From contig JALCQM010000016.1 of assembly GCA_022651245.1 (NCBI GenBank), positions 1 through 57,910 of the forward strand: a DNA stretch of 57,910 nucleotides, given 5' to 3'. The notes below the pieces were generated by a model, which was not told where the DNA came from, ran no database searches, and saw nothing but the letters and a program-made list of their open reading frames with translations. Both the position numbers and the translations under genes were made by a program. This DNA is from Lactobacillus sp. GTDB lineage: Bacteria > Bacillota > Bacilli > Lactobacillales > Lactobacillaceae. Below, piece by piece: positions 2,757 to 54,871 of the stretch; the first letter of the stretch is position 1; each line of letters opens with the position of its first letter.

Positions 2757-3014
2757 GAGCGCGTTTAGAGCAAAGCGCGATCCTCGGCGGTTCTAGGCAA
2801 GTCTATAAGGCAGCATGACGTGGTGGGGCGATAGCCACGCCATGGCGTGATGACTTATAGGCATTGCCGTTGCCGAAGAGAGCGCGTTTAGAGCAGAGCG
2901 TGATCCCCGGTGGTTCTAGGCAAGTCTATAAGGCAGCATGACGTGGTGGGGCGATAGCCACGCCATGGCGTGATGACTTATAGGCATTGCCGTTGCCGAA
3001 AAGAGCGCGTTTAG
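2757..3014 (+). repeat. Tandem 123-bp intergenic repeat, locus A
   Basis: Two complete 123-bp direct repeats (2757-2879 and 2880-3002) are followed by the first 12 bases of a third. Each unit holds an imperfect palindrome running from TATAAGGCAGC to GATGACTTATA. The same core recurs in inverse orientation at 41832-41954 and twice in 54508-54862. The repeats fill most of the 426-bp space between the divergent pdxS and MocR genes. The left remainder (2636-2756) has only a degenerate fragment of similar sequence and no gene. Confidence 0.85.
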
Positions 3015-3039
3015 ACACCCCACAATAAGGAGGCCCTTC

Positions 3040-14435: not shown

Positions 14436-16670
14436 CTAAGCGCGCTTCTTCAAAGACGTGCCGGCTAAGCCGAACAAGGTACCCATCACAGCCAAGACAC
14501 CAACTGCGGTAGTCGCGGTGTTCGCATCGTCACCGGTGGTTGGCAATGCGGCAGCGGTCGTGCTCTTAGCCGCTTGCGTCAACGTTGTGGCAGCAGGCGT
14601 TGCTTTGGCAACGGTCGCCGCGGTCTTAACGGTGGCAGCCGGTGTGGTGGTCTTGGTGTCAGCCTTCGTGTCTGTCGTGGTGGCAGGCTTGCTTGGTGTC
14701 GTGGTGGTTGTTTGCTTTTCAGCAGCAGCCTTCTTAGCCGCCGCTAAGCCATCAGCGTAAGCTTGGTCGATCTTCTTGTAGTCGGTGTAGTCTTGGCCCT
14801 TCTTGTGGCTGTCCAAAACTTCTTGAGCATGCTTAGCCCGGGCAGCTGCCAGCTTTTGCGCGCGGGTCGCAGCACCGGCATCGAAGCCTTTAGCGAAGTT
14901 GTTCTTGTAGTTGGTGGACTTGTCCGCCAAGTCAGGCAAGATCGCACCGGTTTCACCGTAACGCTGGCCATCGATGAAGGCCTGGTTGGCTTCAGCTTTT
15001 TGGGCGGTCAGCTTCAAGGCACGGGTCGCAGCACCAGCATCGAAGCCTTGGGCGAAGTTGTCTTTGTAGTTGGCGGACTTGCCGGCTAAGTCAGGCAAGA
15101 TCGCGCCAGTTTCGCCATAGCGTTGGCCATCGCGGAAAGCGGTGTTGGCTTCGTCTGCTTTGGAAGCCGCGTCAATGGTGTCTTGAGTAGGCGTGGTGGC
15201 TTGGCCCATGTGGTTGGCTTGGTTCTCAGCGTTGGCCTTGTCCTTTGCAGCAGCTAACTTCTGCGCACGGGTGGCGGCACCGGCATCGAAGCCTTGGGCG
15301 AAGTTATCTTTGTAGTTGGTGGACTTGTTTGCTAAGTCAGGCAAGACGGCGCCGGTTTCACCATAACGTTGACCATCGCGGAAAGCGGTGTTGGCTTCGT
15401 CTGCCTTGGAAGCGGCGTCGATGGTGTCTTGCGTCGGTGTGGTGGCTTGGCCCATGTGGTTGGCTTGGTTTTCAGCGTTGGCCTTGTCCTTAGCGGCAGC
15501 TAACTTCTGCGCGCGAGTGGCGGCACCGGCATTGAAGCCTTGGGCGAAGTTGTCTTTGTAGTTGGTGGACTTGTCGGCTAAGTCAGGCAAGACGGCGCCG
15601 GTTTCACCATAACGTTGACCATCGCGGAAAGCGGTGTTGGCTTCGTCTGCTTTGGAAGCGGCGTCGATGGTGTCCTGAGCAGGTGTGGTGGCCTGGCCCA
15701 TATGGTTAGCTTCGTTTTCAGCAGTGGCCTTGTCTTTAGCAGCGGCCAACTTCTGCGCACGAGTGGCGGCACCGGCATCGAAGCCTTGGGCGAAGTTGTC
15801 TTTGTAGTTGGTGGACTTGTTTGCTAAGTCAGGCAAGACAGCACCAGTTTCACCATAGCGTTGGCCATCAATGAAGGCTTGGTTAGCTTCGGCTTTCTTT
15901 TCTGCAGCTAAGCGGTCGTTGAATTGAACATGCCCAGCGGTCACGCCTGCCAAGAAGGCCTCTTTATCACCAGCGGACATCCCGTCGAGATAAGACGATT
16001 GAATGGCGGCAACCCCTTTACGCCCTAACTGCAAGCCCTTCGCGTAGGCTGCTAATTCGTCAGCGGTCTTGCCGGTTTGGTTGGCATTGTTTTGGTTGGA
16101 CTGATCAGTAGGCGTTGGGGTTTCGTTGGTCGTGGTGCGACCAGCGCCAGCTTGATCCGCGTTGTTTTGGTTGGACTTGTCAGTAGGCGTTGGGGTTTCG
16201 TTGGTTGTCGTGCGGCCAGCACCAGCTTGGTCCGCGTTATTTTGGTTGGACTTGTCAGTAGGCGTTGGGGTTTCGTTGGTCGTGGTACGGCCAGCGCCAG
16301 CTTGGTCCGCGTTGTTTTGGTTGGACTGGTCGGTCGTTGGCTTCGTGTTCACTTTCTCGCTCCAAGCGGCATGGCCAGCGTTATAGCCGGCGGTGTAGCC
16401 TTGCGAGTAGGCGTCAGAAACATACTTGATTGCAGGTGGGTTGGCACCGAGTGCGCCTACTTTTTGGCCAGCCGCATAACCGGCATCGTATTGGCCCTTG
16501 TCGACTTGGGCTTGGTTGATGCTGGAGACACTACCTGGTTCGTTGGTATCAGCGCTGACGGTTTGGCCGCCGAAGGCTTGCACGCTAAAAAGGGATGCGG
16601 CTGCGATTCCTGCAGCGATCCACGTCTTATGTGCTTTATATAGTTTCTTTGCTCCCCGTTGTTCTGTCAT
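14436..16670 (-). CDS. LPXTG-anchored repeat protein with KxYKxGKxW-type signal peptide
   Basis: A 744-residue surface protein. The start at 16670 is preceded by GGAGGAG; an in-frame extension of 27 residues upstream lacks a ribosome site. Residues 8-45 form a KxYKxGKxW-like signal peptide (KKLYKAHKTW then a hydrophobic core, cut near VSADT). Next come a Y-x-x-G-Y-x-x-G region (about 60-105), three 25-residue Asn/Thr/Pro-rich repeats (TTTNETPTPTDKSNQNNADQ-like), three near-identical 82-residue repeats plus two shorter ones (each with DGQRYGETGA and NFAQGFDAGAATRA), a Thr/Ala-rich wall-spanning tract and the sorting signal LPTTGD, membrane helix and KKRA tail. Sortase A attaches it to peptidoglycan. 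Probably an adhesin or glycoprotein. Confidence 0.93.
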   Translation of the reverse strand: MTEQRGAKKLYKAHKTWIAAGIAAASLFSVQAFGGQTVSADTNEPGSVSSINQAQVDKGQYDAGYAAGQKVGALGANPPAIKYVSDAYSQGYTAGYNAGHAAWSEKVNTKPTTDQSNQNNADQAGAGRTTTNETPTPTDKSNQNNADQAGAGRTTTNETPTPTDKSNQNNADQAGAGRTTTNETPTPTDQSNQNNANQTGKTADELAAYAKGLQLGRKGVAAIQSSYLDGMSAGDKEAFLAGVTAGHVQFNDRLAAEKKAEANQAFIDGQRYGETGAVLPDLANKSTNYKDNFAQGFDAGAATRAQKLAAAKDKATAENEANHMGQATTPAQDTIDAASKADEANTAFRDGQRYGETGAVLPDLADKSTNYKDNFAQGFNAGAATRAQKLAAAKDKANAENQANHMGQATTPTQDTIDAASKADEANTAFRDGQRYGETGAVLPDLANKSTNYKDNFAQGFDAGAATRAQKLAAAKDKANAENQANHMGQATTPTQDTIDAASKADEANTAFRDGQRYGETGAILPDLAGKSANYKDNFAQGFDAGAATRALKLTAQKAEANQAFIDGQRYGETGAILPDLADKSTNYKNNFAKGFDAGAATRAQKLAAARAKHAQEVLDSHKKGQDYTDYKKIDQAYADGLAAAKKAAAEKQTTTTTPSKPATTTDTKADTKTTTPAATVKTAATVAKATPAATTLTQAAKSTTAAALPTTGDDANTATTAVGVLAVMGTLFGLAGTSLKKRA
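15127..15864 (-). repeat. Three tandem 246-bp in-frame repeats
   Basis: Three units with an exact 246-bp (82-codon) period, at 15127-15372, 15373-15618 and 15619-15864, differ at few bases. Two shorter related units follow at about 14880-15126. They encode the helical G-Q-R-Y-G-E-T-G repeats of the LPXTG protein and are likely to expand or contract by recombination. Confidence 0.9.
16089..16313 (-). repeat. Three tandem 75-bp in-frame repeats
   Basis: An exact 75-bp period (starts at 16089, 16164 and 16239, with a partial fourth at 16314) encodes a 25-residue Asn/Gln/Thr/Pro-rich spacer in the LPXTG protein. Confidence 0.9.
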
Positions 16671-39387: not shown

Positions 39388-40305
39388 CTAAAGTACTTGC
39401 CGCCGCGCTTGGGGCAAGGTGTTACCGTATAACCGTTCGATGTGCAGCATTTGCGTTTGCTGTCGCGGTAAATTGGCGATGGTATAAGCCACAAGGTGGG
39501 CGGCTTGCAAACCGAGGCTACGTTGGCGCTCAATATAGGCGAAGAGGGGGTGTGGCTGGTGGTTGCGGTCAGCTTGGGCGATGAGTAACTGGCGGGCGTG
39601 GCGATGGCGTGGCGGCGTGCGCAATGCAGCCGGGACATCGACGTAAATGTTCACGCGACCCAGTTGGGTTTGCAAGCGGTGTGTGATGGTCGCCAAATAC
39701 GGCCACCAGCCTAGCTGGTATTTGCCGGCATCTTTGAAGAATATGGCGGGTGCGGGTGGGTCTTGGCTGTAAACCAAGGAGCGTGTGAGCGGGGTCAGCA
39801 CCGTTTTAGGCAGTGTATCCGGCAACACCATACCGTGTTCTCGCCAATGTCGCGCATATAAGCGAGCGTTAAGGCGATTCAAGGTACGGTTGCCTGGCTG
39901 AATCGTGAGCGCCACCACAACTAAGTCGCCACCTGGGGTCGGGGCCGCACTGACGTAGATGATAGGGATGTCGGCAGGCACGACTAACGGGGCGTCGACA
40001 CGGCCAGTTGGCCAGTGATCCAGCGTGAACGGTGGGGTGTGCGGGCCATGGTGGTGCCGCGCACGTTGGTTAGCTTGTTGCCTCTTGAGGCGTTCCAAGC
40101 CAGCGACCACGGCGTCGTCAGCCATAGCTTTCATACGGCCCACTTTGCGCTGAATTTCGGTACTGGGCTTGAGGTGCGCTTGCAAGCGGGCGTAGTTTTG
40201 CCGGGAGACATGTAAGAAGCGCGCCTTGAGTGCGTCGTCATATGCGAGTCGCATATATTCACGTAACAGCATCATCAACAGCTCCAATCTCTTAATTCGT
40301 AACAT
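39388..40305 (-). CDS. Hypothetical basic protein behind a long structured leader, 305 aa
   Basis: I do not recognise this family with confidence. The protein is basic, with a helical N-terminus (about 1-85, rich in Leu/Arg/Lys), a His/Pro-rich linker (about 80-95) and an alpha/beta C-terminal half containing VNIYVDVPAAL and, near the end, GLQAAHLVAYTIAN, which faintly recalls the L-Q-x-A-D-L-x-A-Y block of DUF3800-like proteins. The ATG at 40305 is used because GAAGG lies just before it. Upstream, a terminator ends 17 bases before the start and an approximately 600-nt untranslated RNA precedes it, so expression may need read-through or antitermination. Confidence 0.65.
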   Translation of the reverse strand: MLRIKRLELLMMLLREYMRLAYDDALKARFLHVSRQNYARLQAHLKPSTEIQRKVGRMKAMADDAVVAGLERLKRQQANQRARHHHGPHTPPFTLDHWPTGRVDAPLVVPADIPIIYVSAAPTPGGDLVVVALTIQPGNRTLNRLNARLYARHWREHGMVLPDTLPKTVLTPLTRSLVYSQDPPAPAIFFKDAGKYQLGWWPYLATITHRLQTQLGRVNIYVDVPAALRTPPRHRHARQLLIAQADRNHQPHPLFAYIERQRSLGLQAAHLVAYTIANLPRQQTQMLHIERLYGNTLPQARRQVL

Positions 40306-40321
40306 GCGCCTTCGAGAATAT

Positions 40322-40369
40322 AAAAAGAATGCCGTGACACTGACGAAAGAATCGTGGTGTGACGGCATT
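40322..40369 (-). terminator. Terminator at the end of the structured RNA
   Basis: 13-bp arms with one mismatch (40328-40340 and 40357-40369; AATGCCGT...ACGGCATT), followed on the minus strand by CTTTTTATA. On the plus strand TTTTTAA also follows, so it can work both ways. Confidence 0.8.
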
Positions 40370-40938
40370 TTTAATGGCGGATTAAGGGTAGCAAACCGCG
40401 CTTAACTAAGGTGACCCCATCCCGAAAAATTGGGGGCCGAAGTCTATGTCCATTCACGCGGGTGAACGCCCCGCCTGCTAATCTTACAGTCGTTAGCAGT
40501 GCAGGTGATCGGTGGTCGTAAAGCGGTCGGGCCAGGTTCTTACCTCTGGCGTGCGGCGTCACCGTCAATGCGGAAAGCAGGGATTCTTATCGCCATCGAC
40601 GCTGAGGGCCTTCTCGCTGCCGGATTAAGGGCTAAGCGAACATCGGCGGTATGGCGTACTGGGCGCAATTGAAGCGTGCTATGGCACTGGGGTGAATCTA
40701 TGAGGACACGGTAGACAATGGAGTGGCAGCATTTCGGTGCGCCACTTCTACGGAGCCCGCGTGAGTCGAGAAGGCACATGTCCTAATCCTCGATCCCGAC
40801 GGGTACAACCCAGGAAATCCTGGGCGACTCAGCTAGTGTTTAGGCCCCCCCATGACTAACGTTGACACCAGCACCATGAGCAAACTCATGGCCCGACCTG
40901 AGTGCGGCGGTCGTCCAACTCGCCAACTTGTGATCGGT
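40322..40938 (-). ncRNA. Candidate large structured RNA or attenuator leader, about 600 nt
   Basis: About 570 bp of GC-rich sequence without a credible reading frame lies between a TATAAT box (40950-40945, minus strand) and the terminator at 40322-40369. Read on the minus strand it contains many short perfect hairpins: CCATGAG/CTCATGG, GCCCAGGA/TCCTGGGT, GTGGC-GCA/TGC-GCCAC, GCCAG/CTGGC, TGCTAA/TTAGCA, TTCAC/GTGAA and CCCCA/TGGGG. It lacks the motifs of RNase P RNA, tmRNA, SRP RNA, 6S RNA or T-box leaders that I know. It may be a free RNA or the control leader of the 305-aa gene. Confidence 0.55.
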
Positions 40939-40944
40939 AATTGT

Positions 40945-40972
40945 ATTATACCCCGATTTCTTGAAAGCGAAA
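40945..40972 (-). promoter_or_regulatory. Promoter of the structured RNA
   Basis: A perfect TATAAT on the minus strand (40950-40945) lies 16 bases from a weak -35-like TTTCGC (40972-40967). Transcription would start near 40938. Confidence 0.55.
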
Positions 40973-41146
40973 CCATTTTGCTCGTGAAAAATTTACTTCA
41001 ATGAATTGCCCTGAAATAGGCGGCAACTTGCGAAAATGTCAGTGGTTGACGAAGGATGATCGAAGCAATTGTTGGTCGATACGCAAGTTACAATCGTAAT
41101 CCGAACGAACGTTTGCTATACTAGAGGCAAATAGGGAGGTGTGGCC

Positions 41147-41641
41147 ATGCTACAGCAAGCGACATACGCGTCACCATTGGGCCCAATGGTGTTATTAGGA
41201 GACGAAGAGGCGTTGTGGGGCGTGTGGTTTGCCGATCAGCAGTATTTTGGGGCTAACTTTGCGCTCGACCAGGTGCCGGTTGGCGACAACGCGAGTTTGC
41301 AAGCTGCACAGGACTGGTTGACGGCGTATTTTGCTGGTGAGGAGCGGCCGCGGCCGGCCTTGCACTTCAGTGGCACACCGTATCGGCAAGCGGTGCAGCA
41401 GGCCTTGACCCAGATCCCGCGCGGCGCTACCGTCACTTACCAGCAACTGGCGGCTACCGTTGCCGCGACGCTCGGCCACAAAACGGCGGCGCGTGCGATC
41501 GGCGGGGCGGTGGGCCATAATCCGCTGAGCGTGATCGTGCCGTGCCACCGCGTTGTCGGCACCGATGGTAGCCTGACCGGTTACGCCGGTGGCCTGGCAC
41601 GCAAACAGGCACTGCTAGCGCTGGAAGGCGCCCGCGAGTAA
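41147..41641 (+). CDS. ogt: Methylated-DNA-protein-cysteine methyltransferase
   Basis: A 164-residue suicide repair protein that takes methyl groups from O6-methylguanine. The acceptor Cys133 lies in IVPCHRVVG, preceded by the helix-turn-helix PRGATVTYQQLAA and the 'arginine finger' region A-A-R-A-I-G, and followed by LTGYAGGLARKQALL. ATG at 41147 is well spaced to AGGGAGG; a GTG 6 bases earlier is too close. An extended -10 box TGC-TATACT is at 41114-41122. A strong terminator follows, so the gene is monocistronic. Confidence 0.95.
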   Translation: MLQQATYASPLGPMVLLGDEEALWGVWFADQQYFGANFALDQVPVGDNASLQAAQDWLTAYFAGEERPRPALHFSGTPYRQAVQQALTQIPRGATVTYQQLAATVAATLGHKTAARAIGGAVGHNPLSVIVPCHRVVGTDGSLTGYAGGLARKQALLALEGARE

Positions 41642-41692: not shown

Positions 41693-41707
41693 GCGCGCGG
41701 TTTTCTT

Positions 41708-42201
41708 AGTCGAGCTGCACAAGCCAACGCGATTGCGTGTAAGTCGCCTCGGTCACGCGATGGCGTTGCCATCACGCACCCAAGTCGCCTTACACACATC
41801 GCTAAACCCGGCTTGTTCCGCTCTGTTTCTTAGTCGAGCTGCACAAGCCAACGGGGTGGCGTATAAGTCATCGCGCCACGCTCCGGCTAACGCCGAACCG
41901 CGTCACGCTGCCTTATACACACCCCTAAACCCGGCTTGTTCCGCTCTGTTTTTTAGTCGAGCTGCGTGGCGCATGGGGGCGCGTTCTAACCGGTCTCGGC
42001 GGCGTGCGGCTGGCGCCACCCACCACCAAGCCCTGTTAGCCCGTTCTCCATAAGCGCGCCACTTCGCTCTGTTTTTTAGTCGAGCTGCACAAGCCAACGC
42101 GATTGCGTGTAAGTCGCCTCGGTCACGCGATGGCGTTGCCATCACGCACCCAAGCCGCCTTACACACATCGCTAAACCCGGCTTGTTCCGCTCTGTTTTT
42201 T
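41708..42201 (-). repeat. Four tandem ~123-bp intergenic repeats, locus C
   Basis: Units begin at 41708, 41832, 41955 and 42078 (periods 124, 123, 123, with the array closing at 42202). All share a linker of about 45 bp (on the minus strand GCAGCTCGACTAAAAAACAG and GCGG-AACAAGCCGGG). Units 1 and 4 have a palindromic core TGTAAG...CTTACA and are nearly identical; unit 2 has TATAAG...CTTATA; unit 3 has GCTAAC...GGTTAGAA. The array begins exactly at the stop codon of the M20 peptidase gene and fills the space up to the ogt terminator. Confidence 0.88.
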
Positions 42202-43342
42202 AGTCAAAAAACGCCCGGGCGACGCGTTCGTAAATCTTTTGTGCGTGGCGGTAGCGGTTGATGCTGACGTATTCGTCGACGCGGTGCCCCGTGGCGCCTT
42301 CGTCTGCGGTCGGGCCGTACCACACGATGTCGAAGTCATGGGCACTTTTGACGAAGGCCGAGGCGTCGGTGGCGCCTTGCGTGAAGTGCGGGGTGAAGTC
42401 CAACCCACGCTCAGCTTTGACTGCGGCGCGCAAGGCCGTCAGCAACTTGCCGTGGGGGTCGGACTCGACCGGGACGATGTTATGGATCAACTGGAATTCT
42501 AGGGTGCCTGGGCCTGCTTGGTTGAGGCGGTCGACGAGGCCCTGGAAGCGCGTGGTGACCTGGGCGTTGTCAAACGTTGGGGTCGGCCGCGCGTTACCGC
42601 GCAATTCGGCATAATCGGGGATGGTGTTGATCTGCTCGCCACCTTGCAAAACGGTCACCGAATGCACAAAGCGACCGATATACGGGTTGTCCGGGACATC
42701 AGCGAATAGGGTTTGTTCGGCGAGGTAAAATTGTGCCAGCTTACTTAAGGCGTTGACGCCTTTGTCAGGGTCCCCGCTGTGCGCGGCGCGGCCATGACTG
42801 CGCACGCGGTAATTGTAGGAGCCACCATGGCCCCATTTTAGACCGTTATCGCCGCCTTCGCCGACAATCAAGCCGGCCAGGTCGTCGACGTAACCGAGCT
42901 TGGTGAGCTGTTCGGCCCCGAGCAGCCCGTACTCTTCGCCGATCGTCGCCAGCAGGCGCACGTGATGTGGGAAGCCGGACTGCTTGAGCCGGATCAGCGT
43001 CAGGGTGAGCGCGGCTAATCCTGGCTTCATGTCTTCGGCGCCGCGGCCGTAGAGGCGATCGCCGTCGATCCACGGCTCAAAAGGCGGCCGGGTCCAATCT
43101 GCGGGATCGCCGGTATCGACTACGTCTTCGTGGCCGGTGAAGCCCAGCACCGGGCCAGGGGCGTCGGCGTTGATCTCGGCGACCAAGTTGTCCCGCCCGG
43201 GGGCATAAGGGATCAAGGTGCTGGGAATCCCGGCTGCCGCCAATTTGGCCTGTAAAATTTTGGCCACTCCGGTTTCGTTACCCGTGCTCGTCGATGAGTC
43301 GACGCGGATCAGCTCTTCTAATAAGGCAATATCTTCGTCCAT
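42200..43342 (-). CDS. M20 family metallopeptidase (ArgE/DapE-type)
   Basis: A 380-residue zinc amidohydrolase. Metal-binding motifs: TGHEDVVDTGD (His/Asp pair, about 69-79), GRGAEDMK (about 99-106, bridging Asp), EEYG (about 135-138, catalytic Glu), and a late H near ATGHRVDEYV (about 352-361); the dimerisation domain (about 175-280) is complete. It removes acyl groups from amino acids or cuts small peptides. ATG at 43342 lies two bases after the upstream S9 peptidase stop, with AAGGAG inside that gene's end, so both form an operon. The stop codon is the first base triplet of repeat array C. Confidence 0.9.
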   Translation of the reverse strand: MDEDIALLEELIRVDSSTSTGNETGVAKILQAKLAAAGIPSTLIPYAPGRDNLVAEINADAPGPVLGFTGHEDVVDTGDPADWTRPPFEPWIDGDRLYGRGAEDMKPGLAALTLTLIRLKQSGFPHHVRLLATIGEEYGLLGAEQLTKLGYVDDLAGLIVGEGGDNGLKWGHGGSYNYRVRSHGRAAHSGDPDKGVNALSKLAQFYLAEQTLFADVPDNPYIGRFVHSVTVLQGGEQINTIPDYAELRGNARPTPTFDNAQVTTRFQGLVDRLNQAGPGTLEFQLIHNIVPVESDPHGKLLTALRAAVKAERGLDFTPHFTQGATDASAFVKSAHDFDIVWYGPTADEGATGHRVDEYVSINRYRHAQKIYERVARAFFD

Positions 43343-54382: not shown

Positions 54383-54507
54383 CGCCGCACCTCCTTTCAG
54401 ACTCGCTCGTGGCCAGATGCCACTTGTAATGATAGTAGCATGTTTGGCTAGATCTTCACATGCAACAAGTATAAAAATGACACCATTACGCGGAAGATTC
54501 TGGTTCG

Positions 54508-54862
54508 CGCTCATAACGCGCTTCCCTAGCGCAACGGGGTGGCGTATAAGTCATCGCGCCCTTGTCCGGCTGGTGCCGAACTGCGTCACGCTGCCTTATA
54601 CACCCCCCTAAACCCGCGCTGGCTCACGCTCATAACGCGCTCCCCAAGGCAACGGTGAGCGGTTCTAACCAGTCGCACCGTCAGCCGGCGGTGCCGGCTA
54701 ACGCCACGCCAGGTTAGCCCGTCACCTAAACCCGCCTTGACTCACGCTCATAACGCGTTCCCCAGCGCAACGGGGCAGCGTATAAGTCATCGCGCCCCTG
54801 TCCGGCTGGGGCCGAACCGTGTTACGCTGCCTTATCCACACCCCTAAGCCCGCGCTGGGTCA
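54508..54862 (-). repeat. Three tandem 118-119-bp intergenic repeats, locus D
   Basis: The linker CGCTCATAACGCG recurs at 54508, 54627, 54745 and (first half only) 54863. Units 1 and 3 have the TATAAG...CTTATA-type core, as at loci A and C unit 2; unit 2 has the GCTAAC...GGTTAGAA-type core, as in C unit 3. The array lies upstream of NfeD (minus strand) and of the GntR operon. The 54383-54507 stretch holds the NfeD promoter side and no gene. Confidence 0.85.
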
Positions 54863-54871
54863 CGCTCACTA

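Follow-up and report, generated by a model that had tools for sequence, protein, structure and literature searches.

Genomic context of the repeat unit

The window, meaning the whole stretch of 57,910 nucleotides that was analysed, holds a 693-bp unit between ogt (41141-41641) and a gene without a known family, which is followed by a fructosamine kinase gene. This unit, copy A of a dispersed repeat, lies on the minus strand. The features of the locus are:

40286..40978, minus strand, repeat unit copy A, 693 bp, with promoter and terminator inside the unit
40967..40972, minus strand, weak -35-like hexamer TTTCGC, spacer 16, from the copy alignment
40945..40950, minus strand, -10 box TATAAT, read in the sequence
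40322..40938, minus strand, predicted transcript of ~617 nt, deduced from the -10 box and the terminator
40851..40898, minus strand, 5' arm of the long-range closing stem, predicted from duplex energy
40525..40569, minus strand, 3' arm of the long-range closing stem, predicted from duplex energy
40470..40505, minus strand, 3' hairpin 1 (CTGCTAA...TTAGCAG), predicted fold
40451..40468, minus strand, 3' hairpin 2 (GTTCAC CCGC GTGAAT), predicted fold
40370..40403, minus strand, most variable segment, directly before the terminator, from the copy alignment
40328..40369, minus strand, intrinsic terminator hairpin, then TTTTT, with the T-run reaching 40322
40286..40321, minus strand, conserved repeat tail past the T-run, 36 bases, ending in GCATGTTACRAATTAAGAGWTT
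39388..40275, minus strand, downstream gene of no known family, 295 aa, outside the repeat

A sequence-only reading of this DNA had described a TATAAT box, some 570 bp without a credible open reading frame, a strong terminator and, 17 bases later, the start of a 305-aa protein. The TATAAT box was confirmed at 40950-40945 on the minus strand. The -35 hexamer of copy B is TTGCGC, compared with TTTCGC in copy A. A consensus scan for promoters and terminators listed neither element of copy A; for the promoter this is explained by the weak -35. In these points the anatomy is weaker than claimed. The terminator exists as a hairpin at 40369-40328 with its TTTTT. Across the five copies described below, hairpin energies were -19.7 (A), -24.0 (B), -20.3 (C), -32.5 (D) and -27.7 kcal/mol (E). 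The stem contains mismatches in A, B, C and E, and the T-run is kept in all five. The lack of a credible frame also held, the inner frames being short and not kept between copies. An ATG does lie at 40305, 17 bases past 40322, but it falls inside the repeat. The probable start is the ATG at 40275 with the putative ribosome-binding site GGAG at 40285-40282, so that the protein would have 295 instead of 305 residues. This probable ribosome-binding site begins one base outside the repeat.

The downstream gene has a paralog on contig C13 (L055 3390-4307) and two relatives in one other genome of the genus (2/30 genomes). The downstream protein and its paralog comprise ~300 aa each and showed no convincing Pfam or PHROG family.

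The immediate neighbour of ogt in L. porcinae (L074) and L. manihotivorans (L061) is the fructosamine kinase gene, so the present locus carries an additional stretch that contains both the unit and the downstream gene. This comparison covers the 2 of 18 fetched kinase loci in which ogt was present, and their ogt/kinase junction offered no clean empty site for the unit. The nearest kinase found, with 88% identity, was that of L. baoqingensis, where a different gene lies upstream of it. The nearest locus included, 14 of the 18 fetched kinase loci belonged to Lacticaseibacillus, and we infer that this is the host genus. Direct repeats with a spacing of ~75 to 250 bases were also noted in the window at 14842-15896, 16071-16340 and 2757-3015, possibly in surface-protein-like genes.

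Copies of the unit in the genome

Five copies of the unit turned up when the own genome (2.77 Mb, 73 contigs) was searched at the DNA level. A and B are whole, and C, D and E are partial:

C1:38387-39080, copy B, whole
C21, contig end, copy C, cut by the contig end
C32, contig end, copy D, cut by the contig end
C5, contig start, copy E, cut by the contig end

Where they overlap, the copies are pairwise 90 to 96% identical. Because three contigs stop within the unit, five is a lower bound, and more copies probably exist. The 23-nt stretch around the -10 box is identical in A and B and was found only twice in the genome, which means that the assembly lacks the promoters of C, D and E. The 5' halves of these three copies lie outside the assembled sequence. 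The right end of the unit falls at the identical position in 5/5 copies, and the left end is visible in A and B only. The right-end motif GCATGTTACRAATTAAGAGWTT occurred without mismatch at five genome sites, all of them at the five copies. It was found nowhere else in the own genome, even with up to three mismatches allowed.

Past the right end the copies diverge, with the exception of C and E, which share another repeat. Copy B sits after a major facilitator transporter gene, and copy D is found past a phosphoesterase-like gene. Copy C, past a response-regulator gene, is separated from it by the other repeat; after copy E come this repeat again and an ABC transporter gene. In this second dispersed family the unit measures ~123 bases (CGCTCTGTTTYTTAGTCGAGCTGC), and tandem arrangements are frequent. 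The family was located in the window at 41695-42212 and 54505-54868, and elsewhere at L052 9802-10320, L054 371-899, L053 8046-8414 and L051 11100-11236. On contig C1, near copy B, a 185-bp stretch carrying the start of a Mur-ligase-like frame is duplicated with 97% identity (L051 1371-1555 and 5864-6048, the second copy truncated). The fragment showed no Pfam match, and the Mur name is our own reading.

Surroundings thus differ between the copies, and no single gene or kind of gene stands behind the unit. This bears on a second suggestion of the sequence-only reading, that the locus is a very long attenuator deciding whether the gene at 40275-39388 is expressed. The gene does run in the same direction, no obvious promoter of its own was seen between the terminator and 40275, and read-through could feed it. 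However, the same unit, promoter and terminator included, recurs in other surroundings without that gene, and for this reason the attenuator was rejected. The paralog on C13 has none of the five copies beside it, and the probable ribosome-binding site of the gene belongs to the sequence outside the repeat. We consider an attenuator very improbable at this locus. The constant right end amid different surroundings argues that the unit is no dedicated leader of the next gene, and the idea that the downstream protein is the partner of the RNA fails on the same recurrence of the unit without the gene and of the paralog without the unit. A leader-like RNA before a gene can thus be a scattered repeat that landed there, and a natural misreading is corrected.

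The fixed right end and the scattered sites also favour an explanation as a non-autonomous mobile element, that is, DNA moved by a transposase or recombinase, in which promoter, fold and terminator would be incidental or would serve the element. That the unit and the downstream gene sit together in additional sequence between ogt and the kinase gene points the same way. So does the 36-bp tail, which is conserved past the T-run and is needless for an RNA gene; it speaks for some role at the DNA level. Against a mobile element, neither terminal inverted repeats nor target duplications were seen by eye at both ends of the two whole copies, A and B. No autonomous partner was found in the own genome, either by the right end or, in a DNA search with E up to 10, by other parts of the unit. 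A mobile element of this kind is possible but on the whole rather improbable as the full explanation, and it may be true at the same time as an RNA gene.

Informative columns grouped copies A, B, C and D in mutually incompatible ways, AD with BC in 11 columns, AC with BD in 3 and AB with CD in 2. The AD/BC columns were concentrated in the variable linker. The incompatible groupings indicate recombination between copies. Such mosaic variants suggest recombination in the genome itself, with mosaics of the assembly being less likely.

Search for relatives

No Rfam match reached the gathering score in the window. This covers the known large RNAs, a search that the sequence-only reading had suggested. 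With E up to 10, the region 40200-41150 gave a single hit, a chance match on the opposite strand to a viral stem-loop model that is unrelated, with 13.8 bits against a cut-off of 44. Neither tRNA nor tmRNA was present in the window. Plasmids and phages gave no match to the unit in a distant-mode search, and viral contigs contained none of three exact patterns taken from it. One exact 20-base pattern was absent from genome contigs, a search that diverged relatives would escape.

Two models were built, R1 for the 3' part from five copies and R2 for the 5' part from two copies. R1 matched 4 of 30 genus genomes with E up to 1, namely the own genome and three weak hits (E 0.024, 0.64 and 0.84). Its best foreign match, L033, sits where a coding-looking stretch ends and resembles an ordinary terminator. 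R2 matched three of the 30 genus genomes, the own genome and two weak hits (E 0.26 and 0.57). Among 397 family genomes, R2 matched the own genome and G146 (E 5.8e-4); the latter is taken as chance because it lies inside a 201-aa reading frame.

DNA searches matched 2/100, 3/397, 2/395 and 3/398 genomes, the own genome included in each count. The three larger sets represent the family (397), the order (395) and the phylum (398); they overlap and include the own genome, and these wide searches scored the two best candidates per genome. The genomes covered are one per species. The foreign matches measured 22-46 bases, and reading frames cover the ones in G013, G379, G902 and G927. The match in G572 (L056) spans 46 bases with 80% identity, half of it outside the unit, with no frame over 90 aa there. 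Altogether, no convincing relative was found in 29 other genus genomes or in the samples of about 400 genomes each from family, order and phylum. The unit looks lineage-specific in these sequence searches, being seen in one genome, and in the literature searched no listing shows this repeat.

Coding signal and substitution pattern

The alignment of A and B contains 52 substitutions in 693 columns, of which 39 are transitions. Their distribution over the three codon phases (18, 17 and 17) shows no codon periodicity, and a long conserved protein frame across the region, named beforehand as the finding that would speak against an RNA, was not found. Substitutions are unevenly spread, with 4 in columns 51-200 of the 5' core versus 16 in columns 601-650 before the terminator, where small indels misread as substitutions may account for some of the 16.

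The remains of a decayed and multiplied protein gene were considered because 14 residues of a single minus-strand frame resemble glycerol kinase with a score of 47. The comparison was prompted by a 32-bp DNA match in the relative G013, picked from 100 genomes. At least 2 of 200 shuffles scored 47 or more (top ten 43 to 51), and the resemblance was dismissed. The other weak DNA matches lie in unrelated genes, and together with the missing periodicity they make a decayed gene very improbable.

Predicted RNA structure

Overall folding of the unit is not exceptional. Whole-RNA folding gave z-scores of -2.81 for copy A and -1.65 for copy B. Twenty-three random stretches of the window ranged from +0.63 to -3.37, and one of them was lower than copy A. 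The many perfect hairpins emphasised in the sequence-only reading proved not to be unusual in a shuffle test of copy A. Stems of at least 6 bp formed three perfect hairpins versus a shuffle mean of 1.16, a number reached by 21/200 shuffles; stems of at least 7 bp formed two, reached by 7/200.

A single long-range stem is unusual. In a windowed test with coarse steps, the duplex reached -59.5 kcal/mol in copy A and -62.0 kcal/mol in copy B. Eighty shuffles of copy A had a mean of -44.7 and a lowest value of -53.5 kcal/mol, so that 0/80 reached the copy, and 2 of 100 GC-matched genomic stretches were at or below -59.5. The antisense duplexes were weaker, with -51.6 and -51.3 versus -59.5 and -62.0 kcal/mol in sense. 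A large-segment duplex test was unremarkable (239/300 and 232/300 shuffles as low or lower); it measures total complementarity between the unit ends and not the one stem, and its result counts against structure.

Copies A and B shared 125 high-confidence pairs, versus a mean of 90.5 under simulated substitutions (n=200, the null also used for the in-pair counts), and 4/200 simulations reached this number. On the structure of copy A, 14 substitutions fell in pairs where 20.5 were expected (3/200 reached this). On the structure of copy B pairs were not avoided, with 23 in-pair substitutions versus 20.0 expected, a count that 152/200 simulations equalled or undercut. One double change (355/394) occurs; 69/200 simulations matched or beat it, and it is not significant. 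Seven in-pair substitutions were all compatible with pairing, a candidate line of evidence that was set aside: with pairs chosen as common to both copies, the simulation yielded zero incompatible changes as well.

In 3' hairpin 1, one pair is G-C in A, D and E and G-U in B and C. Hairpin 2 is invariant in 5/5 copies and therefore offers no covariation. The variable segment at 40370..40403 occurs in two allele types, one in A and D and the other in B, C and E. Since no homologue was found, there is no independent covariation. Altogether, the evidence that the predicted fold is conserved between copies A and B is moderate. The uneven substitutions and the excess of shared pairs favour a role as RNA and thus weigh against the non-autonomous mobile element.

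Interpretation

We consider it about an even bet (probability roughly 0.5) that the 693-bp sequence is a lineage-specific, multicopy large RNA gene, dispersed as a defined unit and comparable in kind to the supermotifs of Lactobacillus plantarum (LPSMs). The free-standing RNA that had been proposed from the sequence is compatible with the data once it is taken as multicopy, dispersed and apparently lineage-specific.

As such a gene, each 693-bp dispersed unit would encode a large noncoding RNA of ~617 nt, on the minus strand at copy A. Transcription would start at the promoter and end at the intrinsic terminator, both inside the unit. The predicted RNA would have a core closed by the long-range stem, whose arms would lie at ~nt 40-88 and nt 370-414 of this RNA. 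The core would be followed by the two 3' hairpins, the variable linker and the terminator. Each copy would have spread whole, between fixed ends, and the copies would exchange sequence by recombination. The structured RNA would act, if at all, in trans, with a dose set by copy number; its role would presumably not lie in control of the next gene.

A further, tentative and rather unlikely version is that the RNA gene family is itself mobile, a large structured RNA in a 693-bp element with its own promoter, terminator and fixed ends, which recombination would have multiplied and homogenised in one Lacticaseibacillus lineage. Taken together with the LPSMs, such a mobile family would suggest that giant multicopy RNAs have arisen in lactobacilli more than once, each time anew. 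If transcribed, the unit is an unrelated-looking addition to the few multicopy large RNAs of lactobacilli. One genome offers several almost identical copies that vary naturally, so that the importance of individual parts of the RNA can be tested directly.

Comparison with known systems

Like MITE-like and IS200/605-derived elements, the unit is defined, dispersed and without coding capacity. It differs from a DDE-type MITE in lacking visible terminal inverted repeats and target duplications (by eye, A and B), and from non-autonomous mobile elements in having no partner with the same right end in the own genome. With GOLLD, ROOL, OLE and HEARO the predicted RNA shares the size range and the general architecture, being large, folded and noncoding. 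It is unlike them in having neither an Rfam match nor a single partner gene.

Two systems from lactobacilli are closer. A Lactobacillus salivarius lncRNA of 520 nt is described in PMC5643018 as megaplasmid-encoded, very abundant and specific to that species. As far as that description goes, the unit resembles it in encoding a large noncoding RNA (predicted here) of similar size that is specific to a lactobacillus species. It differs in occurring in five copies and on contigs with chromosomal-looking genes.

LPSMs, in the account given by PMC5643018 citing Wels et al. 2009 (J Bacteriol), are intergenic, transcribed and stable, with 800-1000 nt. They have a cruciform structure and many copies, and they are specific to one lactobacillus species (PMC5643018). 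By this account the unit is shorter (693 bp, with a predicted RNA of ~617 nt), has fewer known copies (five) and belongs to another genus. It is like the LPSMs in being intergenic and multicopy, with five dispersed copies in the own genome, and in its lineage specificity, one genome carrying it among those sampled. A possible counterpart of the cruciform is the long-range stem closing the predicted core, which is stronger than in 80/80 shuffles and was equalled by 2/100 genomic stretches. The unit is accordingly filed, by the resemblance of these descriptions and not by sequence homology, as a candidate of the LPSM kind.
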